Shown here: positions 13,383-42,926 of the stretch, in pieces
Layout: every line of letters begins with the position of its first letter
Numbering within the stretch: the first letter of the stretch is position 1
Assembly (NCBI GenBank): GCA_017309115.1
Contig: JAFLEF010000025.1
Span: 37,569-101,568, forward strand
From: Verrucomicrobiota bacterium
GTDB lineage: Bacteria > Verrucomicrobiota > Verrucomicrobiia > Limisphaerales > UBA9464
Direction: 5' to 3'
Length of the DNA stretch: 64,000 bases
The notes under the pieces: model-generated
Database searches by the model: none
The model's input: only the letters and a program-made list of their open reading frames with translations
What the model was told of the DNA's origin: nothing
Program-made: the position numbers and the translations under genes

Positions 13383-13428
13383 AATCCGTCCCGCAACGCT
13401 CCGGCAAATGAGGCTTTCACACAAGGAA

Positions 13429-14920: not shown

Positions 14921-15032
14921 GGGCGTCTCCGGATCCTCAGGCGGCCCCGGTCTTCAGGCTCGGCCCGACCGGTGAATTCCCCAGGGTGACTCCGTTGACA
15001 TTTGGCGCCGGAGCGCAGGAGATTGCGTTCGG

Positions 15033-18951: not shown

Positions 18952-20208
18952 TCACTGGGAGGCCTTGTCCTTCAATACCTGCTTCAAGGCTGTAGCGGGA
19001 TCCTCCACCAAGGCGGCGGTCACGGCGAACCGTTTCACCCGGCTGGAAGGCAGCTTGAACTTGAAGTCCCGGAAGACGCGTTCGCAGACCGTCATGAGTC
19101 CGCGGGCGCCGGTGCCTTCCTGGGCCGCCAGCGCAGCCAACCGGCGCAGGCCGTCATCGCGGAAGTCCACCTCCACGCCATAGGCGGCGAAAGCGCGTTC
19201 GTATTGGTGAATCAGGCTGCTCTCGCTCTTGCGCAGGACGTCAAACAGATCGTCCTCGTTGAGTCCGTGGCAGGCGACCCGAACGGGCAGTCGGCCAATG
19301 AATTCCGGCTCCAAGCCGTAGGCGATCAGGTCCGACGTGGTGGTCTGGGCGATCAAGCGATCTACGCTGGTGTGGCCGGCCTTGCTGCGCCGGGCTTCGG
19401 CGGCGGGCTGGGTTAGGAGCCGACGTCGGATCAGCTGATCCATTCCGGAGAAGGCACCACTTACGATGAACAGAATGTGTCGGGTGTTGAGCGTCTCCTT
19501 CGCCGGAACTCCGCCCCGCATGGCGCTCATGGCCGACTGGAGCTGGCCGGTCATGTCGTTGGGCGAGACCAGCGGCACTTCGGCATCCTCCATCAACTTG
19601 AGCAGATTCGTCTGCACGCCCCGTCCGGAAACGTCCCGTCCGGCGCCGGCTTCGCGGGTGGCGAGTTTGTCCACTTCATCCAGATAGATGATGCCGTGTT
19701 CGGCCTTTTTGAGGTCGTTGCCGGCGCGGCGATAGAGGTCGCGCACCAGGTCATCCACATCGCCGCCGACGTAGCCGGTCTCGCTGAACTTCGTGGCGTC
19801 GGCTTTCACGAAGGGCACGCCGATCAATTCCGCGGCCGAGCGAATCAGGTGCGTCTTGCCCACGCCCGTCGGTCCCAGCAGCAGCACGTTTTGCTTCTGA
19901 TAATAGGGCGCGGCGTGGCCTTCCTCGGTCAGGCGAACGTGTTGGAAGTGATCGCACAAGGCCACGCTCAGAACTTTCTTGGCCTCGGTTTGGCCAATGA
20001 CGAAGCGGTTGAGGTGGCGGGCGATTTCCTGGGGTCGCAGTTGGAAATGGAAGGCGGAGGAAGGTGCGGCGGTTTGGATGACCCCGGGCTTGGGCTGGGG
20101 TTCCTCCAAGGTGGAGCGGACCGGGGAGCGGACGGAACGGAGTTTGCGCGGGACACCTTGCGTGACCGGGCCAAGAGCGCCGGGATGTCCACTGGGATGA
20201 TCGACCAT
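18952..20208 (-). CDS. ClpX-like AAA+ unfoldase lacking the zinc-binding domain
   Basis: A 418-residue AAA+ protein of the ClpX/HslU clade. Walker A is GPTGVGKT (112-119), the pore loop is ETGYVGGDVDD (GYVG as in ClpX), Walker B is IIYLDEVDK, and the C-terminal small domain includes GTGARGLMTVCERVFRDFKF. Two ClpX hallmarks are missing. No Cys-rich zinc domain precedes residue 55; only a proline-rich leader is there. No I-G-F loop is found between FSGMDQLIRRRL and GLEPEFIGRLP, so ClpP docking is doubtful. It may be a stand-alone unfoldase. It is followed by era and the amidase on the same strand. No clpP is in the window. Confidence 0.85.
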   Translation of the reverse strand: MVDHPSGHPGALGPVTQGVPRKLRSVRSPVRSTLEEPQPKPGVIQTAAPSSAFHFQLRPQEIARHLNRFVIGQTEAKKVLSVALCDHFQHVRLTEEGHAAPYYQKQNVLLLGPTGVGKTHLIRSAAELIGVPFVKADATKFSETGYVGGDVDDLVRDLYRRAGNDLKKAEHGIIYLDEVDKLATREAGAGRDVSGRGVQTNLLKLMEDAEVPLVSPNDMTGQLQSAMSAMRGGVPAKETLNTRHILFIVSGAFSGMDQLIRRRLLTQPAAEARRSKAGHTSVDRLIAQTTTSDLIAYGLEPEFIGRLPVRVACHGLNEDDLFDVLRKSESSLIHQYERAFAAYGVEVDFRDDGLRRLAALAAQEGTGARGLMTVCERVFRDFKFKLPSSRVKRFAVTAALVEDPATALKQVLKDKASQ

Positions 20209-26009: not shown

Positions 26010-26128
26010 ATCGATTTCCAGCCTACGGTTTTGAAGTATTAAGTTTACAAGTGTAACTAAATGAAAGCCGACCGAGCGACCGAGCGCAGACCGGATCGTT
26101 CGTGGTTTTCGAAACTCTCCCTGGTTTT

Positions 26129-28393
26129 ATGAAACGTTTTTCCCGGGCTTTACGAGCCTGCTGGTTCGGCTTCCTGCTGAGTGCGGGAGCGGCTGATGGT
26201 GATTTGGAACTACTCCCGAGCGGCCCTGAGTTGCAGGTGCGCATTCGAGGCGACGAAGATGAAGACTGGCGCGTCCAGGCTTCCGAGAATCTGGTGGACT
26301 GGTCGAATCTTGATTCGTTCGGAGTGCTCGTGTCGGGCGGGACCAACGCGCCGATCCGCTCGCTCGGTGAACCCACCGGCAGTCATCTCTTCTACCGAAC
26401 GGTGAAGACGGAAGGCCTGTACGATCCGTCGCTGATTCGGACCTTTCATCTCACCTTCACGCAGTCCAACTGGCAGACGCTCCTGACGTCGGGTCGGACG
26501 ACGGGATCGAACACGGTGGCCACGTTGGTCCTGGACAACGGCGCCACCAACACCGGCGTGGGTGCCCGTTACAAGGGCAACACTTCGTTCACGATGGGTG
26601 GCGCCAAGAAGTCGGTGAATCTGGAGGTCAACTTCACCAACGACGCGTCGGAGCTGCTCGGTTACGAAACGGTGAACCTCAACAACGCGGCTGGGGACGA
26701 GACGATCATGCGGGAGGCCGTGTACTTCAATGTGATGAGCCGTTACACAGTGTCGCCGCGAGGCGCCTTGGCCCGGTTGTTCATCAATGGCGAGAACTGG
26801 GGCGTGTATTCCCTGGCGCAACAGGGCGACAGCGACTTGGTGAAGGAATGGTTTTCCAGTGCCGACGGCGATCGCTGGCGCGCGCCGAATGCCGGCGGCG
26901 GCACCGGAGGAGGACCGGGCGGAGGGGGACCTGGCGGAGGCGGCATGTTCGCCAGTTCTTTGTCGGCGCTCAGTTGGCTGGGCACCAGCAACGTCGCGAC
27001 CTACAAGTCCAATTACGAACTCAAACACACCCTCGACGAAACAGGAGCCTGGGAACGTCTGGTTCACGCTTGCGACGTGCTCAACAACACCGCCCTGAGC
27101 GAGCTGCGGAACAAGGTTGAGGACGTGCTCGCGGTGGATCGTTGGCTGTGGTTCCTGGCGATCGAAAACATTTTTGCCGACGACGACAGCTACTTCAACA
27201 AGGGCGCTGACTACGCCTTCTACTGGGAACGGGAAAGCGGCCGGATTCATCCGATCGAACACGACGGGAACGAGTCGTTCACGGCCGGCGATGTCTCGCT
27301 CTCGCCCGTCCAGGGTGTGACCGGAACCAATCGTCCCGTGATCTCGCGGTTGCTCGCCGTGCCGGAACTGCGGCAGCGGTATCTGGCCCACATGCGGACG
27401 GTGCTGGAGGAGTCGTACCATCCGGCGAAGCTGACTCCGGTGATTGACGCCATGTCGGCGTTGAGTTTGGCGGCCATAACCGCGGATCCGAAGAAGAGCT
27501 TTACCATGACGACCTATCAGGCTGACCTGAAGGCGCTGAAGACCTTTGTCACGAATCGCTACACCTTCCTCACCAATCACGCCGAATTGAAGCCGCTGGC
27601 GCCGACGATTGTCAGCGTGTCGGAACCGGTTCCTCCGGTGGCCGGGGCGGGTACGGTGATCACGGCCACGGTTCAGGGGGCGGTGGGCGAGGGCATCAGT
27701 TCGGTGTGGCTCTGGTATCGCGGAGGACCCACCGGTCGGTTTACCGCCACCGAAATGAAGGATGACGGCTTGAGTGGTGACGGCGCGGCCAACGACGGTG
27801 TGTACGGGGGAACCACGGGAGGGTTTGTCGCCGGAACCAAGGTGCGGTTCTACGTCGAGGCGCGTTCCGACAATGCAGCGCAGGCGGCCCGCTTCCTGCC
27901 GGCGCAGGCCGAACAGTTCAGTTACACCTATCGGGTGACGACTTCTGCCGGCACCGAGTCGCCGGTGGTGATCAATGAATTCCTCGCCGACAACGCCACG
28001 GTGCTGGCGGATCCCCAGGGCGATTACGACGACTGGATTGAACTCCGGAATCTCAGTGCTGAAGCGGTTGATCTCTCGGGCATGTATCTGAGCGACTCCG
28101 TCGATAATCCGCGCAAGTGGTCCTTCCCAGCCGGCACCAAACTGGCCGCCAACGGATATCTGATCGTGTGGGCGGATGAGAACGGCAGCGACAGCCCGGG
28201 ACTGCACGCCAACTTCAAGCTGTCCGCCGGCGGCGAACAAATTCTGCTGGTGGACACCGACGCCCGGATGAACGCCCTGCTCGATTCGGTGGAGTTTGGG
28301 GAACAACAGGAGGATGTCTCCGCCGGTCGATCCGCCGCCGATCCCTCGGTGTGGAGTTTCCAGGTGCCGACCCCGGGCGCGGCCAATCCTTGA
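26129..28393 (+). CDS. Secreted CotH kinase-family protein with lamin-tail domain
   Basis: A 754-residue exported protein and paralog of the preceding gene. After a signal peptide ([22 protein letters not shown]) the CotH fold begins at [23 protein letters not shown]. It shows [76 protein letters not shown] and [13 protein letters not shown] normal short loop then follows before [18 protein letters not shown], unlike the EF-hand insert next door. After the kinase come an Ig-like region (residues about 490-610) and a C-terminal lamin-tail domain ([45 protein letters not shown]). ATG 26129 is used; GTG 26102 is in frame but gives a poorer signal peptide. The 5' region has no copy of the direct-repeat box. 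Confidence 0.88.
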
Positions 28394-30405: not shown

Positions 30406-33390
30406 ATGTCCTCGATCCTTCAGGTTATCGACACCTATGCCGCGGACCCCTGGCGCAAATCCTGGCGGTCCCCGGCCATTCGCGAATACGTCGAGACGGG
30501 TCGGGAAACCGCGTTCGAAGCGATTCCTCTCCTCAAGAGCGACTTTCCGCCCGTGGAATTGGCGCAGGTCCTTCCCCCGCCCGAAGCGCTCGATGACCTC
30601 GCGGTTCGGGTCCTGCGGCTTCTGTTGAAGAAGACGTCCGGTCATGGCTTGGGCGTCTGGCTGGCTCGGGTGGGGAAGACTCCGGAATCCTTCCAGGCGG
30701 CCTGTCAGCGCCTCACCGAACTCGGAGCCGACGAGGCCCTGATCACCCTCTTCCTGGGCCAGTGGTCTGCCGCCCTGGAACACGCAACATCTCCGGCCGG
30801 TCAATTCGTAGCGGGCCAGCCGACCGAAGTGTTTCGGGCCCTCCTGGAGAACCGCGTGTTGATCAAACTGGGCATTTTGGAGTCGTTTCTGGCTCGCACT
30901 GCTCCGCCGAATTATATCGCCGGTCTGCAGCAGGTCTTGCAGCACGCGAGCGGAGAACTTCTCGAGTCCGTGGTAGAACGGGCGGTCAGTTTGCTGCGCG
31001 AACATCCCGGGCAGTTTATCGAATTGGCTCGGCTGGCCCTGGAGAAAGCCACCGATCGCTCCCGCCGATTCCAGTTGTTGCAGCACCTTTATACAAGTTC
31101 GCCCGAGCAATACGGGACTCTGCTGGATCAGGAGGTGGTCCGGCTGCTGCCCGGGGAAGGTAATGTCCCAGGAGTTCCCCATATCCCCTGGCATCGGGAA
31201 AAGGAGCTGGCCGAGTGGCTCATCCGGAATCGGCCGGGGCCGTCGGAAGCGGTCCTGGCCGAATACTTCGCCTCGCCGTTGGGAATTGATCCGTGGCGTT
31301 TCAAGGGGGGCGCCGAGTACAAGTATGAAGCCTTGGATGTCGCCGCCAGTCTGGGCGCGGCCGCCGTGCCTTGGTATCGGGCCTGTTTCCGGACACGGCA
31401 GCCCGACGTGCAATTGCGGGCGCTGAAACATTGGCTGGCCCTGGGACGGGCCGAGGATCAAGCCGAGCTGGCGGCTCACCTGCGGCAACTGTTGGCCGCG
31501 CCGGATTCCACGATCCTCGCCCGGGCGATCCGATTGGGTGGCGACGTGGGCCCGGACGTGTTCGAAGCGGATCTCTGGCCGCTGTTGGCCCACAAGTCGC
31601 GCGCGGTCCGGGAAGCCGCGGCCGGCGTCCTGGCGCGACTGGGCGAGAGCCGACTGCCGAAAGTCCGGGAACAATGGGCCGCCAAGAAATCCGACACCCG
31701 GCTCGCCGCAGTGCACTTTCTGAAGACCCTGGGAACGCCCGCCGCCGTGACCGAACTGAAAGCGCGGTTGGACCTGGAGGAAAGCGATGATGTTCGCGAC
31801 GCGATCCTGCTGGCCTTGGAGTCGCTCGGTCAGGGTGGCGCGGCTGATCCGGCGGAGTTTCAACGGCGCGTCCTCGCCACCGTCGCCAAGCTCAAAGGTT
31901 CTCCAGTGCCATGGCTGAATCTTCAGCGCCTGCCGGCCCTGCCGCGCACGAGTGGATCCCCGCTGTCGCCGGAGGAGCGGCTGTATCTGATCTATCGGCA
32001 GTCACGGGTGAAGGAGATGCGCGCCGATCTCGAGGCCCGTCCGCTGCTGAAGTCGCTGGACCGGTCGGCCAGCGGCGCCTTTGCGGTGGAGGTGGTGACT
32101 GCTTTCCTGGGATCCAAGCAGGAGGCGGACGATCGCTGGGCCTTGGCCTTGGCGGCACTCACGGGTGATGACCGGTTGGTGCCGCTGTTGTCGGCGCAGA
32201 TTCGCGAGTGGGCCGACGCCCAGCGCGGGAAGCTCGCCGAGTACGCGGTGCAGGCACTAGCGCTGTTGGGAACCGATGCCGCCTTGCTGGCGGTGGACGC
32301 CATGGCCATTCGCTATCGCAGCAAGAACAAGAACATCGGCAAGGCCGCCGCCGACGCCTTCGCCGCCGCAGCCGCCGCGCGAGGGCTCACGGTGGAGGAA
32401 TTGGGCGACCTCGTGGTGCCCTGGTTGGGATTCACGCCCAACCAACCGCGCCTCGTGACCTCGCCCAAAGGTGCCTTCGAAGTGCGGATTGGCGCCGATC
32501 TCAAGCTCGCCTTCCGCGAAGCCACCACCGGCAAACGGGTGGCGAAACTTCCCGACAGCATTGGTGCCGACGCCAAGTCCGAGCTCAAGGAGGTCACCGC
32601 CAACCTGAAGGAGGCCGTAAAGTCCCAGTTGCTGCGGTTGGAGATGCTGATGGTGCGTCAGTTTCGCTGGCCCGGGGTCCGCTGGCTGGAGTTGTATCCG
32701 CGCCACCCGTTGCTCCGGCCCTTGGCGCAGCGTCTGGTCTGGGGAGAGTATGCTTCCAGTGGCGCCCTGCAGCGGACCTTCCGGGTGCTCGAAGACGGAT
32801 CGCTCACGGATCCCACGGACGAAACGCTCGCGTTGTCCGAGTCGGCGCAGGTGGGTCTGGTGCATCCCCTCGAACTAACGTCAGCCCAGCGGCAGGCGTG
32901 GGTCCAGCATCTGGCGGACTACGAAGTGGTCCCGCCGTTTCCCCAATTGGACCGCCCCGTCGTGGCGTGTCCGGCGGATCAAGTGGAGAAGCGGTTCGAC
33001 CGCCGCTTCACCGGAACCGAACTCAACGGAATGACCTTCAAGGGACGCGCGGAACGGCTGGGCTGGGGTCGAGGCTCGGTGTGTGACGCCGGCATGATCA
33101 ACTTCTACTGGAAGTCGTTTCCCTCGGCAGGAGTGGACGTGTTTGTGGGAACGGAGGGCATGGGCGTGGGCATGGATATGTATTCCGACATGACCTTGGG
33201 GGAGGCCTTCTTCGTCCGCCACGGCAGCGTGAAGATTGGCAGCTACGAGTACGACGAACCCGGGGAGGAATCCGACGAGCGGTTGATTCCCTTCGGTCAG
33301 GTGCCGGCCATTGCCTATTCCGAAGCGTTGGGCGACCTCGCCAAAATTTCTGGCAAAACCACTGAACCAACCCCCGAAACCCCCGCATGA
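30406..33390 (+). CDS. DUF4132 domain protein with HEAT-like repeats (operon gene 1)
   Basis: A 994-residue cytosolic protein. The first 600 residues are all-helical and repeat-like. HEAT-style units are clearest near 350-480 (VGPDVFEADLWPLLAHKSRAVREAAAGVLARLG, then DTRLAAVHFLKTLGTPAAVTELKARL, then DDVRDAILLALESLG). The C-terminal 250 residues are DUF4132: RLVWGEYASSGALQRTFRVLEDGSLTD, VGLVHPLELTSAQRQAWVQHLADYEVVPPFPQLDRPV, then FKGRAERLGWGRGSVCDAGMINFYWKSFPSAGVDVFVGTEG. No catalytic motif is visible. Its stop overlaps the next start by four bases. DUF4132 has no known biochemical role. Placement first in a MoxR-VWA operon suggests a scaffold or effector handled by that chaperone machinery. 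Confidence 0.88.
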   Translation: MSSILQVIDTYAADPWRKSWRSPAIREYVETGRETAFEAIPLLKSDFPPVELAQVLPPPEALDDLAVRVLRLLLKKTSGHGLGVWLARVGKTPESFQAACQRLTELGADEALITLFLGQWSAALEHATSPAGQFVAGQPTEVFRALLENRVLIKLGILESFLARTAPPNYIAGLQQVLQHASGELLESVVERAVSLLREHPGQFIELARLALEKATDRSRRFQLLQHLYTSSPEQYGTLLDQEVVRLLPGEGNVPGVPHIPWHREKELAEWLIRNRPGPSEAVLAEYFASPLGIDPWRFKGGAEYKYEALDVAASLGAAAVPWYRACFRTRQPDVQLRALKHWLALGRAEDQAELAAHLRQLLAAPDSTILARAIRLGGDVGPDVFEADLWPLLAHKSRAVREAAAGVLARLGESRLPKVREQWAAKKSDTRLAAVHFLKTLGTPAAVTELKARLDLEESDDVRDAILLALESLGQGGAADPAEFQRRVLATVAKLKGSPVPWLNLQRLPALPRTSGSPLSPEERLYLIYRQSRVKEMRADLEARPLLKSLDRSASGAFAVEVVTAFLGSKQEADDRWALALAALTGDDRLVPLLSAQIREWADAQRGKLAEYAVQALALLGTDAALLAVDAMAIRYRSKNKNIGKAAADAFAAAAAARGLTVEELGDLVVPWLGFTPNQPRLVTSPKGAFEVRIGADLKLAFREATTGKRVAKLPDSIGADAKSELKEVTANLKEAVKSQLLRLEMLMVRQFRWPGVRWLELYPRHPLLRPLAQRLVWGEYASSGALQRTFRVLEDGSLTDPTDETLALSESAQVGLVHPLELTSAQRQAWVQHLADYEVVPPFPQLDRPVVACPADQVEKRFDRRFTGTELNGMTFKGRAERLGWGRGSVCDAGMINFYWKSFPSAGVDVFVGTEGMGVGMDMYSDMTLGEAFFVRHGSVKIGSYEYDEPGEESDERLIPFGQVPAIAYSEALGDLAKISGKTTEPTPETPA

Positions 33391-36065
33391 ATCCCGCTCC
33401 CTTGGGCCCCGAAACCGAAGCCGCCTGGCAGCGGTGCTGCGACGAGATGAATCAGGCACTGGCGCAGTGTCGCGCGCGGGGTAATGAGGAGGCGGTCACC
33501 CTGGACGCGGCCACGGTGCGAAAGTGCTTCGAGCGATTGGGGGCGTCGACGATCACGACGGGATCTTATCCGCTCCTTGGGTGGCACCTTGGCTCCTGGA
33601 ATGAGAACCTGCGCCCGATCGTGAACCGCTTTTGGGCGCGACCGGAGCTGACCCTTGACCATTATGTGCGCTTCATCGGTTTGGTATCCCCCATTGTCTC
33701 CACCAAGAGTTCGTCGGATGGGGATGAATGGCGGGTGCTGGAATGGACCTTCCCTCAATTTCGCGACGCGCATCCCGGGTCTGATCTGGTGACTTTGGCC
33801 TCGGCGTTGCAGGCCGTGGGCGTGGACTCAGTTCGCTTGGGACGGGCTTTGCTCGTCTCGTATTGGCCTCCGTATTGGGCGATGAGTTCCTCCGCGCTCC
33901 CGTTCTGGCAGCAGCATCTGGAAGCCTTGGACGTCGCGTTCGCGCCGCTGCCGAAGGGTTTTTCGGAACGCTGGCAACAACAGCGGGCCCGCAGCCGAGC
34001 TCAGCAAATCCTGGAGCTCTTCCCGCAGGTGCCCGACCGCTTTCGGGAGGCACTTTGGGGCGCGGCCCTGGGTCCGAAAACGGAGCGCCCCTTCGGTCAA
34101 CGTTGCGTGCAACGGGATCCGGAATTTCTCGCACGTCTGGTGCAGACGCTCGAAACGGGCTCGGCCGAAGCCCGGGCAGCCGCGGCCGACTGGCTGGCCC
34201 GACGGCGCGAAACCGCGGCGGTGCCGAAGCTGCTGGAGGCTCTGAAACGCGAGCGTTCGGATGCCGTGCAATCGGCGTATCTGGTGGCCTTGGAATCCCT
34301 GGGTGTGCCGGTGGAACAGTTCCTGGACCGCGCGGCGGAGGAGCGGGACGCCCCGCGCTGGCTGCGCGGAGGCATTCCCAAAGAGCTGACTTGGTTTCCC
34401 TGGGACACGCTGCCGGTCGTGCACTGGCGGGACTCCGGTGCTCCAGTGCCTTCCGATCTGGTGAAGGCCTGGTTGCTGCGCCACTTCAAGGCCAAGAGTC
34501 CCGAGCCCGGGGCGCTCTTGCGGAGTTCCTGCGCCTGCCTGGTTCCGGCGGAACGCGAGGCGCTGGGTGAGTTCATTCTGGACGCGTGGATTGGTCAGGA
34601 CACCGCGCACATTTCTCCGGAACAGGCGGCGATCGAGGCGGCGGAGATGGCCCAGGGATCGCTGACGTGGCAGCAGCATTTGCAGCAGATGGCGCGGACC
34701 AATCCTGGCCTCGCGCAGAGCATGGGGGCGTCGGCCACGCCGTTGACCTACGAGGAATTCTACCAGCGCGCCTTGGCCGTGACCTCGATTCGTCCGCTGG
34801 GTTCGGCCATTTCCTCGAAGGGTGTGCTGGCTGTGGCGGGGGCGTGCCTCGGAGTGTCGGCGGCTCCCCGGGTTCAGGCGTATTTGCAGCAATGGTACGG
34901 ACAACGCGCTGCCCAATGTCGGGCGTTGTTGCAAATGCTGGCGTGGGTGCCGCATCCCTCGGCCATCCAGTTGCTCCTCGCGGTGGGAACGCGCTTCCGC
35001 ACCCGGAGCATTCAGAAGGAGGCCGCCCAACTCGCGCAGGCGCTGGCAACGCGCAAGGGCTGGACGCTGAGCGAACTGGCCGACCGCACGGTGTCCACCG
35101 CCGGCTTTGATGACTCCGGCGTGCTCCAACTCTCCTATGGTCCGCGAACGTTTGTCGGCCGGCTGAACGAAAAGTTGCAGTTGATCCTCACCGATTCCGA
35201 CGGCAAGCCGCTCAAGGCCCTACCGGACCCTCGGCAGTCGGACGATGCCACGCTGGCCGCGGAGTCGCGTCGCGCGTGGTCGGCCGCCAAGAAGGAGGTG
35301 AAGGGAATTCTCACCAGCCAGCGCGAGCGGCTGTATGAGGCGCTGTGCACCCAGCAGACCTGGCCGTTTGCGGATTGGGATCTCTATTTGAATCGGCATC
35401 CGGTGCGGCGCTGGCTGGCGCAGCGACTGATCTGGGCCGTGCGGCCGGAGTCCGGACCGGCGACGCTGTTTCGTCCGTTGCCAGATGGTTCCCTGACGAC
35501 CGCCACCGACGATCCCGTGCAGCCCGCCGCAGACGCCCGAATCGTTTTGGCGCACGAGTCCTGGGTGGACGCCGCGGAGTCCGCCGCCTGGCGCGAACAC
35601 TTTGCCGACTACGGCGTGGAGCCGTTCCTGAATCAGTTTGGTCGGCCGCGCATTGAGTTGCCGACGGAGCGCGCCATGGACACCGAGTGGCGCGAGTGCG
35701 AGGGTCATATGGTGGAGACCTTTCGGCTGCGCGGCCGGGCCACGAAGCTCGGCTACACCCGGGGTCCCACCGGAGACGGCGGGTGGTTCTACGAGTATCG
35801 GAAGTCCTTCCCGGGACTGGGCGTGGCGGCCGTGATTGAGTTTACCGGCAACGCCCTGCCGGAAGAGAATCGGCTGGTGGCCTTGAAGAAACTCACCTTC
35901 GAACGCGTGGCCCCGCAGGCGAACGAGGAATGGGCTCCGGCCGACTTGATCTCGCTGGGGGAGGTGCCTTCAGTCCTGTTCTTCGAATGCGTGCACGACC
36001 TGCGCGCCCTGGCGGCGGATGGCTCGGGTTACGATCCGGAGTGGGAATCCCGCGCGAACCATTGA
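33387..36065 (+). CDS. Second DUF4132-like protein with HEAT-like repeats (operon gene 2)
   Basis: An 892-residue paralog of the preceding protein. The central helical repeats include RLVQTLETGSAEARAAAADWLARRRETAAVPKLLEALKRERSDAVQSAYLVALESLG. The C-terminal domain runs RLIWAVRPESGPATLFRPLPDGSLTTATDDPVQP, AWREHFADYGVEPFLNQFGRP, FRLRGRATKLGYTRGPTGDGGWFYEYRKSFPGLGVAAVIEFTG, then LISLGEVPSVLFFECVHDLRAL. Every block aligns in order with the DUF4132 region of gene 1, but with low identity. Both copies are therefore old and are probably distinct subunits rather than a recent duplication. ATGA overlap with gene 1; 18-bp gap to the ATPase. Function unknown. Confidence 0.85.
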   Translation: MNPAPLGPETEAAWQRCCDEMNQALAQCRARGNEEAVTLDAATVRKCFERLGASTITTGSYPLLGWHLGSWNENLRPIVNRFWARPELTLDHYVRFIGLVSPIVSTKSSSDGDEWRVLEWTFPQFRDAHPGSDLVTLASALQAVGVDSVRLGRALLVSYWPPYWAMSSSALPFWQQHLEALDVAFAPLPKGFSERWQQQRARSRAQQILELFPQVPDRFREALWGAALGPKTERPFGQRCVQRDPEFLARLVQTLETGSAEARAAAADWLARRRETAAVPKLLEALKRERSDAVQSAYLVALESLGVPVEQFLDRAAEERDAPRWLRGGIPKELTWFPWDTLPVVHWRDSGAPVPSDLVKAWLLRHFKAKSPEPGALLRSSCACLVPAEREALGEFILDAWIGQDTAHISPEQAAIEAAEMAQGSLTWQQHLQQMARTNPGLAQSMGASATPLTYEEFYQRALAVTSIRPLGSAISSKGVLAVAGACLGVSAAPRVQAYLQQWYGQRAAQCRALLQMLAWVPHPSAIQLLLAVGTRFRTRSIQKEAAQLAQALATRKGWTLSELADRTVSTAGFDDSGVLQLSYGPRTFVGRLNEKLQLILTDSDGKPLKALPDPRQSDDATLAAESRRAWSAAKKEVKGILTSQRERLYEALCTQQTWPFADWDLYLNRHPVRRWLAQRLIWAVRPESGPATLFRPLPDGSLTTATDDPVQPAADARIVLAHESWVDAAESAAWREHFADYGVEPFLNQFGRPRIELPTERAMDTEWRECEGHMVETFRLRGRATKLGYTRGPTGDGGWFYEYRKSFPGLGVAAVIEFTGNALPEENRLVALKKLTFERVAPQANEEWAPADLISLGEVPSVLFFECVHDLRALAADGSGYDPEWESRANH

Positions 36066-36083
36066 AATGAGTCCCCACCCGAC

Positions 36084-37220
36084 ATGACCACCCCCGCCCG
36101 AAGCCTTCGTCCGCCGGCTGAAGTCACCTACGCCGAGGAACTCGCCGCCCTGGCCGCCAACGATCCCGGCGAACGTCCCACGCAATGGAAGCTCACGCCC
36201 CGCGCCGTTCGCCAGTTCATCCTGGGCAGCGATGGCGCGGCACTGAGCCACGTGTGGCAGGGAAAGAAAACCCGCACGCGCATCACCCCGAAATTCTTGG
36301 GCGACGATGCCCTCGTCGAACGGTGTCTGGTGACGCTGCTGGGTCAGCGCGGACTGCTGTTGGTGGGCGAACCCGGCACCGCCAAGTCGCTGCTCTCCGA
36401 GCTGCTGTCGGCTGCGATTTCCGGACACTCGCAGTTCACCATCCAGGGCACGGCGGGAACCACCGACGACCAAATCAAGTACTCATGGAACTACGCACTG
36501 CTGCTGGCGGAAGGACCCTCGCCCCGGGCGCTGGTTCCGTCACCGTTGTTCCGGGGAATGCAGACTGGAACGTTGGTGCGCTTCGAAGAAATCACCCGCT
36601 GTCAGCCGGAGATTCAGGACACGCTGGTCAGCCTGCTTTCGGACAAGGCGCTGCACATTCCTGAACTGTCCGGAGGTGACGCCGTGGTGTTTGCCGAACG
36701 CGGGTTCAATCTGATTGCCACCGCCAACCTGCGGGACCGAGGGGTCCATGAGATGTCGAGCGCGCTCAAGCGTCGGTTCAACTTTGAGACCGTCCAGCCG
36801 TTGGCCAACAAGGCGCTCGAACTCCAGTTGGTGAAGGATCAGACGGAGGCGCTGCTGCGGGACTCCGGACTGAAGGTGGAATGTCCGGTCGACGTGCTCG
36901 AGATCCTGGTCACGACGTTCCAGGACCTGCGGCTGGGACGGACGGAGGAAGGAACGGTGGTGGAGAAACCCTCGACCGTGATGTCCACGGCGGAGGCGGT
37001 GGCGGTAGGGCACGCGGCGGCGTTGGATGCGGCCTACTTCGGTCAGGGTCGGATGGAAGGCGCGCATGTCGCGCGGCAGATCGTGGGCACCGTGCTGAAA
37101 GACAACCCGGAGGACGCAAAGAAGCTGCGTCAGTACTTCGAAGTCGTGGTCAAGGCGCGGGGTCAGAACCAGCCGTCCTGGCAGCGGTTTTACGAGTCGC
37201 GGAAGTGGCTTCTGCGGTGA
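36084..37220 (+). CDS. MoxR-type AAA+ ATPase (operon gene 3)
   Basis: A 378-residue AAA+ ATPase. Walker A is GEPGTAKS (95-102), Walker B is LVRFEEITR (about 164-172), sensor 1 is ATAN (212-215), and the arginine-finger region is SSALKRRFNFE (225-235). A GTTDDQIKYSWNYALLLAEGP segment fits the MoxR-type insert before Walker B. About 80 residues precede the ATPase core. MoxR ATPases act as chaperones that load cofactors or remodel partners, usually with a VWA-domain cochaperone, which is encoded two genes downstream. GTGA overlap with the DUF5682 start. All catalytic residues are intact, so an active motor is expected. Confidence 0.93.
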   Translation: MTTPARSLRPPAEVTYAEELAALAANDPGERPTQWKLTPRAVRQFILGSDGAALSHVWQGKKTRTRITPKFLGDDALVERCLVTLLGQRGLLLVGEPGTAKSLLSELLSAAISGHSQFTIQGTAGTTDDQIKYSWNYALLLAEGPSPRALVPSPLFRGMQTGTLVRFEEITRCQPEIQDTLVSLLSDKALHIPELSGGDAVVFAERGFNLIATANLRDRGVHEMSSALKRRFNFETVQPLANKALELQLVKDQTEALLRDSGLKVECPVDVLEILVTTFQDLRLGRTEEGTVVEKPSTVMSTAEAVAVGHAAALDAAYFGQGRMEGAHVARQIVGTVLKDNPEDAKKLRQYFEVVVKARGQNQPSWQRFYESRKWLLR

Positions 37221-39685
37221 ACGCGTCGCCTCCGGAACTGGATTCGCTGCTGGCGGAGTTGATCACGCCGGAGGTGATCTACTTCCCGCTGCGTCATCAC
37301 AGTCCGGCATGTGCGCGGCATTTGGAACGACTGCTGCGCGAACGCCTTCCGCGGAGTGTCCTGATCGAGGGTCCGCCGTCCTTCACGGCGCTGCTGCCGT
37401 GGTTGCGGCATCCTGGGGTCCGGGCGCCGTTTGCGATCTACACGGCGTTTGCGGTGCCGGTCGAGGATGCCGAACCCGGAGTGCCGCCCCGGCGTCGCGC
37501 GGCGTACTACCCGTTTGTGGACTCGTCACCGGAATTGGTGGCTGCCCGTCTGGGCCACGAGCTCGGCGCGAGCGTGCGGTTCATCGATCTGGAGTTCTCC
37601 CAGCAATCGTCGTCGGCGGATGCCGTCTCGGCGGATCGGGTGGGCTCCCTGTTGTCGGAAGCCCACTTGGGACACAGCCGGTTCTTGGCCCGTCTGGCGC
37701 GGCGCGCCGGCTGCCGGGATCACAACGATCTGTGGGACCATTTGTTCGAGACCCGGCTGGAGTCTTCGGATTGGTCGGCTTTTGTTCGCTCGGTGGCGGC
37801 GTGGTGTTGGTGCGCCCGGTCGGAGTACTCCGCCGAAGCGCTGGAAGCGGATGGTACGCTCGCCCGGGAACGCGCCATGACCGCGGCGATCCGGTCGGAA
37901 CTGGCGCAGCCAATGCCGGCAGGGTCGGGTCCCGTGGTTGTCGTGACCGGTGGATTTCACACTGTGGCGCTGCCGCCAGCGGTGCGCAGTGCGGTTGGTC
38001 CGGCGGCACCGGCGGTGGCTCCCGCGGGACCGGCATTGGAGCAGACCACGTGTTTGGTTCGGTACAGCTTCGATCAGTTGGATGCCTTGAACGGGTACGC
38101 CTCGGGCATGCCCGCGCCGTTCTATTACGATCGGCTCTGGCACGCGAGCGGTCGGCCGGAGCGGCGACCTGACGGAGGTTCCTTGTGGGGCGAAGTCGCG
38201 GCGCAATGGTTGGTGGAGTTGGGGCAGTTGAGTCGGCGAGCGAAGAATGCCCATGCGGTGTCGGTGTCGGATCTGATTGCTGCGTTACAGCAGGCCCGGC
38301 AGTTGGCGGCGCTGCGGGGACATCCGGGCCCCACGCGTGAGGATCTGTTGGACGGCGTGCGCAGTTGTTTGGTGAAGGGGGCGACGGACGCCGAGGGCGC
38401 AGTAATTCTGGATCTGGCTCAGCACGCGCTCACCGGTAACCGGGTGGGTGAGGTGCCGGTGGAGGCGGGCGCTCCTCCGCTCGTGGAAGACTTCCGGCGC
38501 CAAGCCCAGCGGTTGCGTTTGAAGCTGGGCGATTCGGTGGCGCGACCGTGCGCCCTGGAATTGTATCGGAAGACGGCGCATCGGCAGATCAGTCGGTTCC
38601 TGCATTCCCTCGTCCATCTGCAGGTGCCCTTTGCCGTGCTCGGCGCCGGACCGGATTTCGTTCGGGGAACCGGACTCGAGCGGATGATTGAGCACTGGGA
38701 GTATCGGTGGTCCCCCGCCACCGAAAGCCAGTTGGTCGAAGCCAGCGTCTGGGGCGCGACGGTGGAGGAGGCGGCCGCCACCCGGTTGCGACGGCTCCTC
38801 GCGGAACTCGAGGAACAGGGTCGCGGCCGGCAGTCCGGAGTCGCGGTGGAACTGCTGATCCAAGCCTGCCGCCTCGGATTGCACGCCCAAGTTTCGCAGC
38901 TGGTGGACTTGATTCAGACGCAGGTGGAGGCGGATCCGTCCTTCGTATCCGTGGTTCAAGCGGCGGCTCAGTTGCGACTGCTCTGGGAATCGCGCGAACC
39001 GCTGGAGGCTCATCGCCTGCCGCAGATTCCCGAGGTTCAGGTGAGGGCTCTGCGGCGCGCGTGTTACCTGCTGCCGAACTTGAGTTCGACTCCCGAGCAA
39101 GAGGCCGAAGCGACCTTGGAAGCGTTGCAGCAGCTGCAAGAACTCCTCTCGCGGGAGAACGTCCAGGCCGGGGCGCAGGTCAGTGCCGATCTGTTTTGGG
39201 AACCGTTGCGGGCCTGGCTCGCGTTGTCGGGGGCGTCTCCGCTGCTGACGGGTGGGGCGGCAGGATTGTTGTACCGGGCCGGACAGATCGACGAGGCGGA
39301 GACGCTCCGCTGTCTGGTGGGACATCTGCAATCGACCGCAACCCGACCGGAATCCCGGCTCGGATTTTTGGTGGGTCTGCTGCGCACCGCCCGGGAACTG
39401 GCGTGGCAGGCGCCGGCGTTGTCGCGGGCGGTGGGTGAACTCCTGGAGCACTGGTCGGATGACGAGTTCCATCGATTGCTACCGCAATTGCGCCTCGCGT
39501 TCTCGGTGCTGACCCCGGCCGAGACGGATCAGGTGGCGGGAGTGGTGGCGCCGCCGCCGGGCGAGGGAGCGCGGTTGGATTGGTACCGTCCGGATCTGGC
39601 GGAGGAGGATCTCGTGTGGGGACGTCAGCTTCGCCGCGCCGTGGAACAGGCCTTGCGCCAGGACGGACTGGAGGCGTGGCCATGA
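37217..39685 (+). CDS. DUF5682 family protein (operon gene 4)
   Basis: An 822-residue cytosolic protein. The N-terminal half is a DUF5682 module: VIYFPLRHHSPACARHLERLLRERLPRSVLIEGPPSFTALLPWL, then APFAIYTAF and YYPFVDSSPELVAARLGHELGASVRFIDLEF. VVVVTGGFHTVALP follows, and the FDQLDALNGYASGMPAPFYYDRLW stretch. The opening RHHSPACA and G-G-F-H-T motifs are the family's most conserved positions and resemble erythromycin-esterase/TraB-like hydrolase folds, so an enzymatic role is possible but unproved. The C-terminal half (about 450-822) is helical. The start is GTG 37217, overlapping the ATPase stop; the upstream in-frame extension is antisense noise. ATGA overlap with the VWA gene. Confidence 0.88.
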   Translation: MNASPPELDSLLAELITPEVIYFPLRHHSPACARHLERLLRERLPRSVLIEGPPSFTALLPWLRHPGVRAPFAIYTAFAVPVEDAEPGVPPRRRAAYYPFVDSSPELVAARLGHELGASVRFIDLEFSQQSSSADAVSADRVGSLLSEAHLGHSRFLARLARRAGCRDHNDLWDHLFETRLESSDWSAFVRSVAAWCWCARSEYSAEALEADGTLARERAMTAAIRSELAQPMPAGSGPVVVVTGGFHTVALPPAVRSAVGPAAPAVAPAGPALEQTTCLVRYSFDQLDALNGYASGMPAPFYYDRLWHASGRPERRPDGGSLWGEVAAQWLVELGQLSRRAKNAHAVSVSDLIAALQQARQLAALRGHPGPTREDLLDGVRSCLVKGATDAEGAVILDLAQHALTGNRVGEVPVEAGAPPLVEDFRRQAQRLRLKLGDSVARPCALELYRKTAHRQISRFLHSLVHLQVPFAVLGAGPDFVRGTGLERMIEHWEYRWSPATESQLVEASVWGATVEEAAATRLRRLLAELEEQGRGRQSGVAVELLIQACRLGLHAQVSQLVDLIQTQVEADPSFVSVVQAAAQLRLLWESREPLEAHRLPQIPEVQVRALRRACYLLPNLSSTPEQEAEATLEALQQLQELLSRENVQAGAQVSADLFWEPLRAWLALSGASPLLTGGAAGLLYRAGQIDEAETLRCLVGHLQSTATRPESRLGFLVGLLRTARELAWQAPALSRAVGELLEHWSDDEFHRLLPQLRLAFSVLTPAETDQVAGVVAPPPGEGARLDWYRPDLAEEDLVWGRQLRRAVEQALRQDGLEAWP

Positions 39686-40812
39686 CGCCGTCGAACGAAC
39701 TGCGCAGTCGCTGGCGCTTGGTGCTCGGACGGTTCGCCCAGCAACGCTTGGAGGTTCCGTTGTCCGGGCGGGACCAGCGGTTGGAGGCCGCGCTCGATTA
39801 TCTGTACTCCCGCGAATACTCCGGACGGGGAGTTCGCGAACGCGGTTTAGCGGGTTCCCTCGATCCGTCCCAGGTGAATCTGACCACCTGGCTGGGTGAG
39901 GTGCGAGAGCTGTTTCCCAAGGAGACGGTGGAGGTCATTGAGAAGCACGCCCTGCAACGGTATGGCCTGACCGAACTGCTCACCGACCGAGAGACGTTGG
40001 AGAAACTGGAGCCCAGCGAGGATCTGCTGAAGTTGCTGCTGACCTTGCGGGGGCATCTGCCGTCCGGGGTGTTGGACAGCGTTCGCCGGATCATTCGGCA
40101 GGTGGTGGAGGAGATTCGGCGGCGCCTGGAGATGGAGGTTCGGCAGGCGTTGGCGGGTCGACTGAATCGGTTTCGACACGCGCCCCGGGCGGTGGCGCAG
40201 AACTTTGACTGGCGCGGAACGGTTCGGCGCAATCTGAAGCACTACGATGCGGAACGCCGGCGGTTGGTCCTGCAGGAGCCACGGTTCTTTGCCCGCAATA
40301 CGCAGATGCTCCCGTGGCAGGTGATCCTCTGTGTGGACCAGAGCGGCAGCATGGCGAGTTCGGTCATTCACAGTGGCGTGATGGCCGGGATCCTGGCCGG
40401 GCTGCCGCTGATTCGGGTGAAGCTGGTGGTCTTCGATACCAGCGTGGTGGATCTGTCGGATCGGGTGGGCGATCCCGTGGAAGTGCTCCTGAGTGTGCAG
40501 TTGGGCGGAGGCACGGACATCGGGAAGGCGCTGACGTACTGTGAGACCCTGATTGAGAATCCGCACCGGACGGTGGTGACCCTGGTGAGTGATTTCTGTG
40601 AAGGCGCTTCCCCGGCCGTGTTGTTGCAGACCTGTCGTCGGCTGCGGGAATCGGGCGTGACGCTGCTGGGCCTCGCTTCCTTGGATGAGCAGGCCAATCC
40701 GGTTTTTGACCGTCAGATGGCGGATCAACTGGCGGACACCGGAATGCAGATTGCGGCCCTGACGCCGAAGCATTTTGCCCACTGGCTCGCGCAGGTGATT
40801 CGCTCCCGGTGA
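39682..40812 (+). CDS. VWA-domain protein with intact MIDAS (operon gene 5)
   Basis: A 376-residue protein. The N-terminal 200 residues are helical and charged (DQRLEAALDYLYSREY, DPSQVNLTTWLGEVRELFPKETVEVIEKHALQRYGL, then RRIIRQVVEEIRRRLEMEVRQALAGRLNRFRHAPRA). They are followed by NFDWRGTVRRNLKHYDAERRRLVLQEPRFF, a conserved lead-in to this VWA subfamily. The VWA domain begins WQVILCVDQSGSM with MIDAS D219, S221, S223, T278 (GGGTDIGKAL) and D304 (LVSDFCEG), all present. The protein should bind a divalent metal and act as cochaperone to the MoxR ATPase. Last gene of the five-gene operon; ATG 39682 overlaps the previous stop. Confidence 0.92.
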   Translation: MTPSNELRSRWRLVLGRFAQQRLEVPLSGRDQRLEAALDYLYSREYSGRGVRERGLAGSLDPSQVNLTTWLGEVRELFPKETVEVIEKHALQRYGLTELLTDRETLEKLEPSEDLLKLLLTLRGHLPSGVLDSVRRIIRQVVEEIRRRLEMEVRQALAGRLNRFRHAPRAVAQNFDWRGTVRRNLKHYDAERRRLVLQEPRFFARNTQMLPWQVILCVDQSGSMASSVIHSGVMAGILAGLPLIRVKLVVFDTSVVDLSDRVGDPVEVLLSVQLGGGTDIGKALTYCETLIENPHRTVVTLVSDFCEGASPAVLLQTCRRLRESGVTLLGLASLDEQANPVFDRQMADQLADTGMQIAALTPKHFAHWLAQVIRSR

Positions 40813-40879: not shown

Positions 40880-40920
40880 CCGATGACACTGAGGGCGGGT
40901 CTGCGTGTGGAATAATTGGA
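40880..40920 (+). promoter_or_regulatory. Conserved upstream motif, copy 1
   Basis: CCGATGACACT, an 11-bp G-rich spacer, then CTGCGTGTGG, followed by AATAATTGG. The same blocks and the same spacing recur at 41480-41520. Copy 1 lies 108 bp before the lipoprotein start. It may be a promoter for an alternative sigma factor or a leader element. Confidence 0.5.
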
Positions 40921-41027
40921 AGAGATCGGCGTTGTTGGTTTCTCGCTGTCTGGTGGGTGAAACCCGGAGCGCTCTTCCTCGTGGTACTGGAGCCCCGCGA
41001 AATCGTCCGAATCAGTTTGTCACTTCC

Positions 41028-41432
41028 ATGAAGCGAACCCTTTTTGTGGGGTGTTTGGCCTGGTTGATCGTTGCCAACGGCTGCGCGCACAACCCATCCG
41101 AGGGATCCGTCCTGATTCTCAACGATCCAGACTTTACCCGGGTTACGGAGATTGACCGGCTGATCGTCATTCCCAGGGAAGTGCCCGAGGTCAAGATTTC
41201 GGTCCGAAAGGCCGGGCAGTATCGCTGCCGAATATGGTCGGAGACGCGACGGAAGGTTCGAACGTGTCTGGCCGACAGCCACACCGTCGAGGTGCAGGCG
41301 CCGCAGCAGATCCACCTCGTTTCGAGTCACCGCGCGTCAGTCTGGCGACAGGATTATTGGGTCGAGATCGAGTATGTCTCCTCGACGGGAGAATCCGCCC
41401 GCCTGGTCCAATTGATCGCAGCGTGGTGGTGA
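41028..41432 (+). CDS. Small lipoprotein of unknown function
   Basis: A 134-residue protein. The N-terminus MKRTLFVGCLAWLIVANGC is a signal with the lipobox-like A-N-G-C at the end of the hydrophobic run, so the mature protein should be tethered by a lipidated Cys. The rest (about 115 residues) is beta-rich and polar, for example VLILNDPDFTRVTEIDRLIVIPREVPEVKISVRKAGQYRCRIWSE and WRQDYWVEIEYVSSTGESARLVQLI. I do not recognise a family. ATG 41028 is chosen since the frame upstream lacks a signal. It is not part of the DUF4132 operon: a gap of 215 bp containing the conserved motif separates them. Confidence 0.65.
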   Translation: MKRTLFVGCLAWLIVANGCAHNPSEGSVLILNDPDFTRVTEIDRLIVIPREVPEVKISVRKAGQYRCRIWSETRRKVRTCLADSHTVEVQAPQQIHLVSSHRASVWRQDYWVEIEYVSSTGESARLVQLIAAWW

Positions 41433-41520: not shown

Positions 41521-41639
41521 ATGTCCTTCGTCTTGCATTCCGCCTCTCCGCCCTGTGCGTGGGGACGGTCTTGTCCTCGTCACTCGACGGATGGTCGAAG
41601 GCATTCTCCGAAGACGCTTTCCTCACTACTCCCTCGGAA

Positions 41640-42926
41640 ATGAACTCAAGAATCCTCTCCTTCGTCCTCGCGGCGGCCTGTGTCCTCCTGGCCCGCGCGG
41701 AAATTGACGTGCCCACGGATGGTTCGGATGGCGATCTCATTTTGACGGATACCGGAACCCCGCGGGAGGTGGTGATCGACCTGAGCCTGGCGCCGACGGC
41801 GGCCTGGAACACCCCGCAGACCCAGCCCCACCTGCCGGACGTCGGTGGGGTGGGGGTTTATGACTCGGCCCAATGGGCGGTGGTGTTCAAATACAACACC
41901 GTTCGGATTGAGAAGAACGTCACGGTGCGGTTCAAGAATCACCCCTCACGAGCCCCCGTGGTGTGGTTGGTGAAGGGGAATGTGGAGATTGCGGGGGAGG
42001 TGAACTTGGACGGTGCCTACGGCGACACGGATGGCAGTAGGTTCAACTTATCCGAGCCAGGTCCAGGTGGCTTTCGTGGGGGTGATGGACCCGTTCCAGG
42101 CTCGCCTTGGTCTCCTGGTCTTGGCCCAGGTGGAAGTGCAGGCGCGGATGGCTCTCTACATCTATTCAACCAGTGGATTCAGCGACCCTCGTATGGTTCC
42201 GTGGGTGCGGCGGGTAACTTTGCCGCAGTTCCGGTCTACGGGAATTCTTCGATTATTCCTTTGGTCGGCGGATCGGGTAGTGGGGGGCAGGTTCAAAGGG
42301 CTGGGGGTGGAGGCGGCGCGGGAGGCGGGGCTGTACTAATCGCCGTTAGAGGAGATTTCAACTTGCTCGCTTCTGGTCGACTCCAAGCAAACGGCGGTGG
42401 AGGTCCTGACGGCGAAGGGGGTACTGGAGGAGCCATTCGCGTGATCTGTGGATCCGCTACTGGCTCTGGACTGCTGCAAGCGATCGGAAATAGCGGAGCT
42501 GGAAACGGCCGAATTCGGCTGGAGTACGGCAGATATCAGGCAGCTTTCGCCATCCAGCCTCCGAGTCTTGCTCTGCCGATCGTCGGTTCGATTCGAATAT
42601 GGCCAGATGACCTAGCAGCTACCGCAAAGATTGTTTCGGTGGCGAATGCGCCGGCACCAACTGATCCGCGCGCTGGAATGGAAGTCGGCTTGCCAGCCGA
42701 CATGATACTGACCCCAGGTTTGGCGACCAAAGTTGTTACAATCGAGACGGCCAACCTCCCCACAAACGCTGTCGTAACGCTTCGTGTGGTATCAAGCGGC
42801 GGTGACGTGCGGGTGAACGCCGACTTCCTCTCCACCACGGCTGATCCCACCAAGCTCCTGTGGCAAAAGGAAGTGACCCTCAGCCCGGGTTACCACGCCT
42901 TGCAGGTGGTCGCGGTCAGCCCCTAA
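41640..42926 (+). CDS. Secreted glycine-rich protein, first tandem paralog
   Basis: A 428-residue protein with a signal peptide (NSRILSFVLAAACVLLARAE). The core resembles right-handed beta-helix or adhesin-like surface proteins: repeated short strands with G-x-G turns (VKGNVEIAGEVNLDGAYGD, EPGPGGFRGGDG, GPGGSAGADGS, GGGGGAGGGAVLIAVRG). The C-terminus reads VVTLRVVSSGGDVRVNADF, LLWQKEVTLSPGYHALQVVAVSP. The paralog starting at 42964 shares both ends almost block for block (RFKNHPSRAPVVWLVxG, PGPGGFRGGD, YGNSS(I/L)IPL(V/I)GGSG, PGYHAxQVVAVSP). Bases from about 42020 to 42830 are less GC-rich than both flanks and use more A/T-ending codons. Its role is probably at the cell surface. Confidence 0.7.
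   Translation: MNSRILSFVLAAACVLLARAEIDVPTDGSDGDLILTDTGTPREVVIDLSLAPTAAWNTPQTQPHLPDVGGVGVYDSAQWAVVFKYNTVRIEKNVTVRFKNHPSRAPVVWLVKGNVEIAGEVNLDGAYGDTDGSRFNLSEPGPGGFRGGDGPVPGSPWSPGLGPGGSAGADGSLHLFNQWIQRPSYGSVGAAGNFAAVPVYGNSSIIPLVGGSGSGGQVQRAGGGGGAGGGAVLIAVRGDFNLLASGRLQANGGGGPDGEGGTGGAIRVICGSATGSGLLQAIGNSGAGNGRIRLEYGRYQAAFAIQPPSLALPIVGSIRIWPDDLAATAKIVSVANAPAPTDPRAGMEVGLPADMILTPGLATKVVTIETANLPTNAVVTLRVVSSGGDVRVNADFLSTTADPTKLLWQKEVTLSPGYHALQVVAVSP

Follow-up and report, generated by a model that had tools for sequence, protein, structure and literature searches.

We analyzed a stretch of 64,000 nucleotides (nt) from the Verrucomicrobiota bacterium GCA_017309115.1 (contig JAFLEF010000025.1, positions 37,569 to 101,568 of the forward strand), hereafter the window, in which five tightly packed genes form an operon of the type known from the yeh region of Escherichia coli. 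Coordinates are positions within this 64-kb window; g1 to g5 are the operon genes in order, G000 is the organism's own genome and Lnnn are numbered loci. According to open reading frame (ORF) and Pfam analysis, the genes encode, on the plus strand, two HEAT-DUF4132 proteins, a MoxR ATPase, a DUF5682 protein and a CoxE-type VWA protein. They are joined by three 4-nt overlaps and one 18-nt gap, and their products total 3462 residues, in agreement with the layout of about 3460 residues given in a first-pass annotation of this DNA. The Pfam scores (DUF4132, 139.6 bits in g1 and 121.1 bits in g2; AAA_5, 122.3; DUF5682, 341.3; VWA_CoxE, 175.2) each exceed the cut-off. The start codon of g4 is a GTG that lies inside a longer mechanical ORF. 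The features are:

30406..33390, plus strand: g1, HEAT-repeat protein with a DUF4132 domain at its C-terminus, 994 residues (ORF, Pfam, AlphaFold2 model)
32530..33066, plus strand: DUF4132 domain of g1, residues 709-887 (Pfam PF13569, E 1.4e-40)
33387..36065, plus strand: g2, second HEAT-DUF4132 protein, of a different old subfamily, 892 residues (ORF, Pfam, tree)
35202..35756, plus strand: DUF4132 domain of g2, residues 606-790 (Pfam PF13569, E 6.4e-35)
36084..37220, plus strand: g3, MoxR-type AAA+ ATPase, YehL orthologue, 378 residues (Pfam; 51% identity to E. coli YehL)
36366..36389, plus strand: Walker A motif GEPGTAKS of g3, residues 95-102 (alignment)
36579..36590, plus strand: Walker B-type motif R-F-E-E of g3, residues 166-169 (alignment)
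37217..39685, plus strand: g4, DUF5682 protein, YehM orthologue, 822 residues (Pfam; 29% identity to E. coli YehM over its length)
37256..37972, plus strand: predicted TraB/PrgY/TIKI-superfamily domain of g4, residues 14-252
38114..39556, plus strand: C-terminal part of g4, mainly helical, about residues 300-780 (AlphaFold2 secondary structure)
39682..40812, plus strand: g5, CoxE-type VWA protein, YehP orthologue, 376 residues (Pfam; 46% identity to E. coli YehP)
40336..40350, plus strand: DxSxS of the metal-ion-dependent adhesion site (MIDAS) of g5, residues 219-223, completed by T278 and D304 (alignment)

The operon almost certainly belongs to the YehI/YehL/YehM/YehP(/YehQ) family of gene sets. 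In E. coli K-12, the order is yehI (DUF4132), yehK, yehL (MoxR), yehM, yehP (VWA) and yehQ (SWIM), and the window shares with this former molR region the DUF4132, MoxR, DUF5682 and VWA families in the same order. Its MoxR, DUF5682 and VWA genes are adjacent and on the same strand, and their products resemble YehL (E 1e-118), YehM (E 3e-43, over nearly the entire length) and YehP (E 6e-108) over most of their length, while YehI matches g1 (31% identity) and g2 (28%) in the C-terminal parts only. The two regions differ in that E. coli has yehF (WGR), a broken yehH, yehK and, in line, yehQ, whereas the window has two DUF4132 genes of two old subfamilies and its SWIM-type gene lies on another contig, with no SWIM gene directly after the VWA gene. 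By these sequence comparisons, we file the window under the L-M-P core set and not as a complete L-M-P-Q operon. YehM carries the DUF5682 annotation in 14 of 15 E. coli records among the matches listed, the fifteenth having matched over yehP/yehQ alone.

The first-pass annotation had taken the operon for an undescribed machine; the neighborhood is that of yehI-yehL-yehM-yehP-yehQ and as such already known, although it has no known function. The yehLMP genes are matched in 5288 of 5426 complete E. coli genomes (in 5165 with at least 80% query cover), with 5297 of 5299 places chromosomal, and yehI in 5283 of the 5426. The genome-reduced strain DGF-298 lacks the set and is viable, so that it is dispensable in the laboratory (excerpt of PMC10652928). 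Almost every E. coli genome has the gene set and many phyla contain it, yet the literature we searched, which covered part of the matching papers, gave no functional study. Snider and Houry, in 2006, reportedly defined a YehL subfamily. YehL and YehP are not mentioned in the text of PMC9976466; the excerpt of PMC6442406 has yehQ in its strain list only, and that of PMC2447237 does not mention yehI. As a separate observation, one sublineage of E. coli ST131 carries a resistance transposon within the metG/DUF4132/yeh region, and the same study classes the DUF4132 region as disrupted in 184 isolates (excerpt of PMC9334617). What is new here is a TraB/TIKI-type domain, a parts list with two architectures, and a SWIM partner encoded elsewhere in the genome.

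By sequence profile and predicted fold, the N-terminal third of DUF5682 is a predicted TraB/TIKI-superfamily domain. In hhalign, DUF5682 residues 1-262 matched an alignment of nine PrgY/TraB-type domains of other genomes with a probability of 89.4% (P 2e-6, 200 columns), and the half-alignments gave P 3.3e-6 and 2.4e-6; the controls yielded P 0.51 (MoxR), 0.15 (VWA), 0.38 (SWIM), 0.38 (reversed) and 0.037 (lowest of 40 column shuffles). The motifs are in register (DUF5682/PrgY-type): R-H-H/T-A-H, L-I-E-G/A-I-E-L, F-I-D-L/L-I-D-R, R-E-x-x-M/E-R-D and G-x-x-H/G-A-G-H. By sequence, a solved TraB-family chain in the PDB was missed by a first TraB alignment and found by a PrgY-type alignment of seven of the nine domains, and the N-terminal domain of the AlphaFold2 model of g4 (predicted local distance difference test, pLDDT, 90.7) matched a solved TraB protein. 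With this superfamily, DUF5682 shares two His motifs (the first with Pro for Gly in part of the sequences), a Glu after the second strand, an R-E/R-D helix before the last strand, and the fold; it differs in being fused to a helical part of roughly 500 residues and in being encoded beside MoxR and VWA genes. Nine residues, H27, E51, E106, D124, E178, R217, E218, G245 and H248, are identical across all 13 DUF5682 sequences compared, namely the window protein, a divergent second copy from the same genome, E. coli YehM and ten copies found in genomes of the phylum with the Pfam model. Given that TIKI-family enzymes have a 2His/2Glu site (excerpt of PMC6254334) and that Tiki proteins are described as metalloproteases (excerpt of PMC12329661), this conservation looks catalytic. 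The first-pass statement that DUF5682 has no assigned activity can therefore be improved upon as far as the domain is concerned, with the hydrolase function as a probable extension. With a TraB/TIKI-type domain and its invariant His/Glu set recognized in YehM, a protein of no known function becomes accessible to a concrete test in a laboratory strain.

In an alignment of 73 MoxR sequences, the window's among them, Walker A is conserved, as are sensor-1 N215 and R230/R231. Walker B reads R-x-E-E in place of the usual D-E, with E168 and E169 in 73 of 73, and STAEA, the stretch that we take to be sensor 2, has no Arg (A303 in 72 of 73, E304 in 71 of 73); the assignment of stretches in g3 to named AAA+ motifs in general is ours. 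Judged by this alignment, both oddities are features of the family and not damage, and since they run throughout the branch, its members may go through a different ATPase cycle than other MoxR proteins. The MIDAS residues of g5 (D219-S221-S223, T278 and D304) are intact and each conserved in at least 95% of 74 rows. Together, g3 and g5 have what is expected of a MoxR protein with a VWA partner, that is, Walker A/B, sensor 1, an arginine finger and the MIDAS pattern DxSxS-T-D, with the Walker B in its E-E form and the putative sensor 2 lacking an Arg. The first-pass claim that all motifs are intact holds for the MIDAS in full; for the ATPase it holds for Walker A, sensor 1 and R230/R231, and needs correction at Walker B and the putative sensor 2.

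Among 387 genomes of the window's phylum, its own included, DUF5682 occurs in 12 (11 above the cut-off; the matches in G344 and G122 are partial) and DUF4132 in 16. Both lie within about 10 kb on one contig in eight genomes (G000, G015, G045, G080, G189, G217, G240 and G307). For a wider view, relatives were gathered from genome contigs by the DUF5682 alignment alone, which gave at least 423 stretches encoding relatives. The best 80 loci were kept and, together with E. coli and a second locus of the window's own genome, scanned with iterated hidden Markov models (HMMs). In these 82 loci, MoxR was found in 74, VWA in 76 and DUF4132 in 43. By our criteria, MoxR, DUF5682 and VWA genes are contiguous in this order in 65 of the 80 loci and, because these loci were found via DUF5682 alone, the linkage is more than chance. 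Among the remaining 15, contig ends and overlong mechanical ORFs predominate; departures or unclear cases are L040 (neither partner found), L061 (VWA not found), L063 (VWA on the opposite strand) and L112 (DUF4132 inserted). HEAT-DUF4132 is hence a frequent neighbor of a strongly conserved unit of ATPase, VWA and DUF5682 genes, and the neighborhood extends well beyond close relatives; the refutation that the first-pass annotation had foreseen for a neighborhood confined to close relatives therefore fails. As a side observation, a DUF4132 gene lies between MoxR and DUF5682 in L199:9299-19998 and L112:2-6953, and L199 also has SWIM/DUF5691-type matches upstream. On mobile elements, none of 26 pattern matches in viral contigs was a relative, and DUF5682 matched a single phage record among 50,697 and 31 plasmid records among 72,556, some of these plasmid records being chromosome-sized. 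The phage match (MT835988.1:11391-12752, 28%, 3e-14) is in an unannotated 14-kb fecal 'Bacteriophage sp.' record, which may be a mislabeled bacterial contig.

Two companion clusters recur, named after one to three Pfam-scanned members each: a SWIM protein directly after VWA in 44 of the 82 loci, and a pair of SWIM and DUF5691 proteins, mostly before MoxR, in 24. They define two recurring architectures, DUF4132(1-3)-MoxR-DUF5682-VWA-SWIM and SWIM-DUF5691-MoxR-DUF5682-VWA. When 25 of the 80 loci are set aside as too near a contig edge, 55 remain with at least 6 kb on either side of DUF5682, and 53 of these have a SWIM-type gene: 33 have DUF4132 and SWIM after VWA, 17 SWIM/DUF5691 without DUF4132, two SWIM after VWA only and one DUF4132 with SWIM/DUF5691; one further locus has DUF4132 without SWIM and one has none of these. 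SWIM after VWA is therefore regular but not taken as defining, being absent in L060 and replaced by upstream SWIM/DUF5691 in 18 of the 55. With DUF4132 or DUF5691 as alternative large subunits and SWIM near-constant, the two architectures amount to a parts list for structural and genetic study. In a MoxR+VWA tree of 68 rows, built by a quick method with Shimodaira-Hasegawa-like approximate likelihood ratio support only, the SWIM-DUF5691 type forms one clade of 24 rows (support 100), of which 23 carry those genes and one, L077, is a 5.6-kb contig. The window's row joins those of Verrucomicrobium BvORR106 (L039) and of a Pseudomonas (L043) at a support of 96. The tree carries eleven phylum labels, with three changes for Verrucomicrobiota (3 rows), four for Planctomycetota (4) and eight for Pseudomonadota (19); this mixing fits transfer between phyla, but is no proof of it. 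The divergent second locus of the window's genome has a very long branch and its placement is unsure.

That second set (L007; G000:C22:52000-71000, positions 7595-15368, minus strand) is without DUF4132 and consists of a 241-residue frame with a Cys-rich SWIM-like stretch (no Pfam match), a 441-residue protein (no Pfam match), VWA, MoxR and a DUF5682 protein of 1000 residues with 19% identity to g4. A P-loop ATPase (weak AAA_16 match) overlapping a TPR protein lies at L007:440-3608, and an IS200-like (Y1) transposase at 5824-7008; these surroundings look more mobile or conflict-like than the window.

The regular SWIM partner is missing from the window itself, where the HMMs of both SWIM-bearing clusters gave no match at E<=1 among 889 frames. 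In G217 and G015, two relatives with DUF5682 proteins 47% and 42% identical to g4, a SWIM gene directly follows VWA. A search of the window's own genome with an alignment of eight SWIM-type proteins returned a single match, G000:C94:6745-8631 (E 6e-132), an intact frame of 695 residues with a CxC...CxH motif, which falls below the Pfam cut-off (E 0.016). Another SWIM protein of this genome, on C35, has a Pfam SWIM match and was not recognized by the YehQ-type HMM. Tetranucleotide usage of C94 correlates with that of the window at r 0.81, compared with 0.59 for another stretch of the same genome and 0.37-0.54 for four other organisms. This speaks against contamination without excluding it, the assembly being rated 3.69% contaminated. 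The simplest reading is that the SWIM partner was kept although it left the operon. As the SWIM-domain gene belongs to the set and lies on another contig, the single complex of five products envisaged by the first-pass annotation is probably incomplete.

The two HEAT-DUF4132 proteins are 29% identical to each other over the C-terminal part. In a FastTree phylogeny of 63 DUF4132 regions, the neighbors of g1 are Verrucomicrobium L039_1/L039_2107, followed by Aquisphaera; those of g2 are L039_5095, followed by Pseudomonas L043_5146. Since they group separately, the tree indicates old paralogues of two subfamilies and not a recent duplication. The AlphaFold2 model of g1 (pLDDT 89.2, predicted template modeling score 0.74) is a helical solenoid followed by an alpha/beta part, and its PDB matches are generic HEAT proteins.

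From these components, we infer an ATP-driven remodeler of MoxR and VWA proteins that controls a TraB-like hydrolase together with HEAT-DUF4132 and SWIM subunits, a mechanism to which, taken as a whole, we give a probability of roughly 45%. By analogy with NorQ/NorD, rings of g3 and the MIDAS-bearing g5 would form the remodeler; there, a VWA finger sits in the AAA+ pore, ATP-driven rotation is proposed to remodel the target, and the MIDAS is a likely contact (excerpt of PMC13036017). The DUF5682 protein would be the dedicated partner of this pair, its N-terminal domain, with the His/Glu site kept, probably being a hydrolase of the peptidase or esterase type. The pair may remodel g4 or its substrate, either loading the substrate onto g4 or switching g4 on; g1 and g2 could serve as scaffold or substrate-recognition subunits, and the SWIM-motif protein encoded elsewhere may be a sixth part, a further binding subunit. 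Catalysis, the existence of the complex, its internal contacts and a role in stress or quality control are all presumptive. NorQ/NorD, CbbQ/CbbO and RavA/ViaA share with the window a MoxR AAA+ protein and a MIDAS VWA cochaperone, but here the partners are DUF5682, DUF4132 and SWIM, and a known client enzyme was not found next door. A stronger version, in which YehM/DUF5682 is a new ATP-dependent hydrolase machine whose MoxR ring and MIDAS-VWA feed or gate a TraB/TIKI-type peptidase with HEAT-DUF4132 (or DUF5691) and SWIM, strikes us as rather doubtful. If true, many bacterial phyla would have an AAA+-controlled peptidase with no relationship to ClpP, Lon and FtsH, one that has gone unrecognized in E. 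coli K-12.

Several observations weigh against the hydrolase machine. The PrgY-type group was the sole strong profile match and was tried after weaker results with other groups: the GumN-type TraB group matched weakly (17.1%, P 0.0015), at the second His motif; erythromycin esterases (Ere) matched weakly (8.7%, P 0.0038), at the first His-to-Glu stretch; and shallow alignments (six TraB and three Ere sequences) were not significant, with probabilities of 1.9 and 0.3. As a yardstick, PrgY-type against GumN-type scores 98.9%; TraB or PrgY against Ere scores 0.4%, so that Ere is unusable for this purpose. In structure, the domain comes closest to an accessory subunit of complex IV from Tetrahymena (9% identity, root-mean-square deviation 4.3), Foldseek alone gave no TraB match at E<=0.001, and TraB-type domains can be non-catalytic. 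The nine site residues do not vary in a larger set either (67 of 67 rows, 23-46% identical to the window protein), but this set was gathered with the RHH and GxxH patterns and the invariance of H27 and H248 is partly built in, which does not apply to the 13-row set. While the second GxxH motif is kept in all 67, the first reads P-x-R-H in the window and not G-x-x-H (Pro in 22 of 67, Gly in 44 of 67, His in 67 of 67). In the literature searched, we found no measured enzymatic activity of any family member. Finally, eight of the 16 DUF4132-positive genomes of the phylum lack DUF5682, so DUF4132 is not dedicated to this machine.

One rival explanation is a TraB-like domain that is inert and structural, with DUF5682 as client or adaptor of a machine that does no more than assemble or take apart a large complex. 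In its favor, the solved chain closest to the domain within the TraB family is an accessory subunit of a respiratory complex; we nevertheless consider it quite improbable, as site residues invariant in 13 of 13 and, with the partial selection on two His motifs, 67 of 67 sequences are unusual for an inert fold. A MoxR/VWA pair may alternatively open a metalloenzyme so that its cofactor can be loaded, much as NorQ/NorD or CoxD/CoxE do, with a possible link to molybdenum. This is possible in view of the CoxE-like VWA domain of g5 (Pfam) and the old name of the yeh region, molR: iron is inserted by NorQD (excerpt of PMC13036017), and the title of Lee et al. 1990 calls molR essential for molybdate use. 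We regard such a metal-cofactor chaperone as unlikely all the same, given that no metalloenzyme family is found among the annotated companion clusters (mainly SWIM and DUF5691, the smaller ones being partly annotated) and that moeA and moeB are not differentially expressed with DRA0166 upon DdrO depletion (excerpt of PMC8533742). The set further includes TraB-like and SWIM partners, neither of which is known to have a counterpart in the nor, cbb and cox sets.

Two further explanations concern nucleic acid and conflict. In one, the ATPase and the hydrolase would be recruited to nucleic acid or to damaged chromosomes by the DUF4132, WGR and SWIM subunits. A SWIM protein is a regular partner and the WGR protein yehF adjoins the set in E. 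coli, but SWIM fingers are able to bind protein as well, and we rate this explanation low. The damage link comes from one organism, Deinococcus, in which the DdrO targets include DRA0166 (DUF4132) and DR2173 (WGR); the levels of both proteins increase upon mitomycin C treatment but not in an irrE mutant, indicating IrrE control (excerpt of PMC8533742). LexA-box-like sites around yeh are not clearly more frequent than expected by chance (13 versus a mean of 9.0, standard deviation 2.9; 11 of 100 shuffles reach 13). Deletion of molR1, which maps to the yeh region, together with lepA slows growth from a doubling time of 22 to 33 min (excerpt of PMC4245954), which shows that the locus matters for something, with a link to translation rather than to damage. 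In the other explanation, the operon would be a further kind of MoxR-vWA-centered ternary conflict system (Kaur et al. 2020), in which a third component senses invasion and an effector acts. The plan of MoxR, vWA and a third component is indeed shared (excerpt of PMC7159879), DUF5682 could be a peptidase effector, its distribution in the phylum is patchy (12 of 387 genomes) with phyla mixed in the tree, transfer is likely, and some window proteins match PADLOC models, none of them next to the operon. However, variable effectors are named as typical of these systems (excerpt of PMC7159879), and here, with DUF5682 as third component, hardly any effector domains are added to vWA: C-terminal tails of at least 80 residues occur in one of 73 VWA, none of 74 MoxR and three of 81 DUF5682 proteins. 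The bpMoxR match in the window is sub-threshold (26 bits, cut-off 27); VMAP, iSTAND, FtsH and beta-propeller are not among the Pfam matches of the five proteins, these four models not having been checked one by one; and the main text of PMC7159879 does not name YehL, YehM, DUF4132, MolR, WGR, TraB or SWIM. As to a defence island, which the first-pass annotation had proposed to look for, no PADLOC family matches the five operon proteins at E<=0.1, and a Pfam scan of ten neighboring proteins gave ordinary matches (CotH, DUF1275, Ig/TSP3, a kinase). With few relatives on mobile elements, no variable effectors and a near-universal place on E. coli chromosomes, a defence role is the less likely course, and we assign it a low probability.

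Upstream, the operon is flanked by a divergent DUF1275 gene, which bounds the gene set on that side; downstream, two plus-strand ORFs (40905-41432 and 41559-42926) have no Pfam match, and a promoter and terminator scan of the operon gave results at chance level. PADLOC searches of ten other window proteins gave matches for three, none adjoining the operon, and none for seven. The protein at 11407-12294 (minus strand) matches mad3 (8.5e-21) and AriA (3.1e-15) and that at 18952-20208 (minus strand) DolB (1.2e-6), both 10-19 kb upstream of the operon; a Ser/Thr kinase of 1012 residues with a long TPR tail (52449-55487) matches many kinase models, which are probably generic. The window further encodes two adjacent CotH-kinase proteins at 23901-28393, the second with a lamin-tail domain, and a large Ig/TSP3 protein at 44413-49272, the end of which consists of four near-identical copies and a partial fifth of a peptide like AISREYSVFNFGVED.

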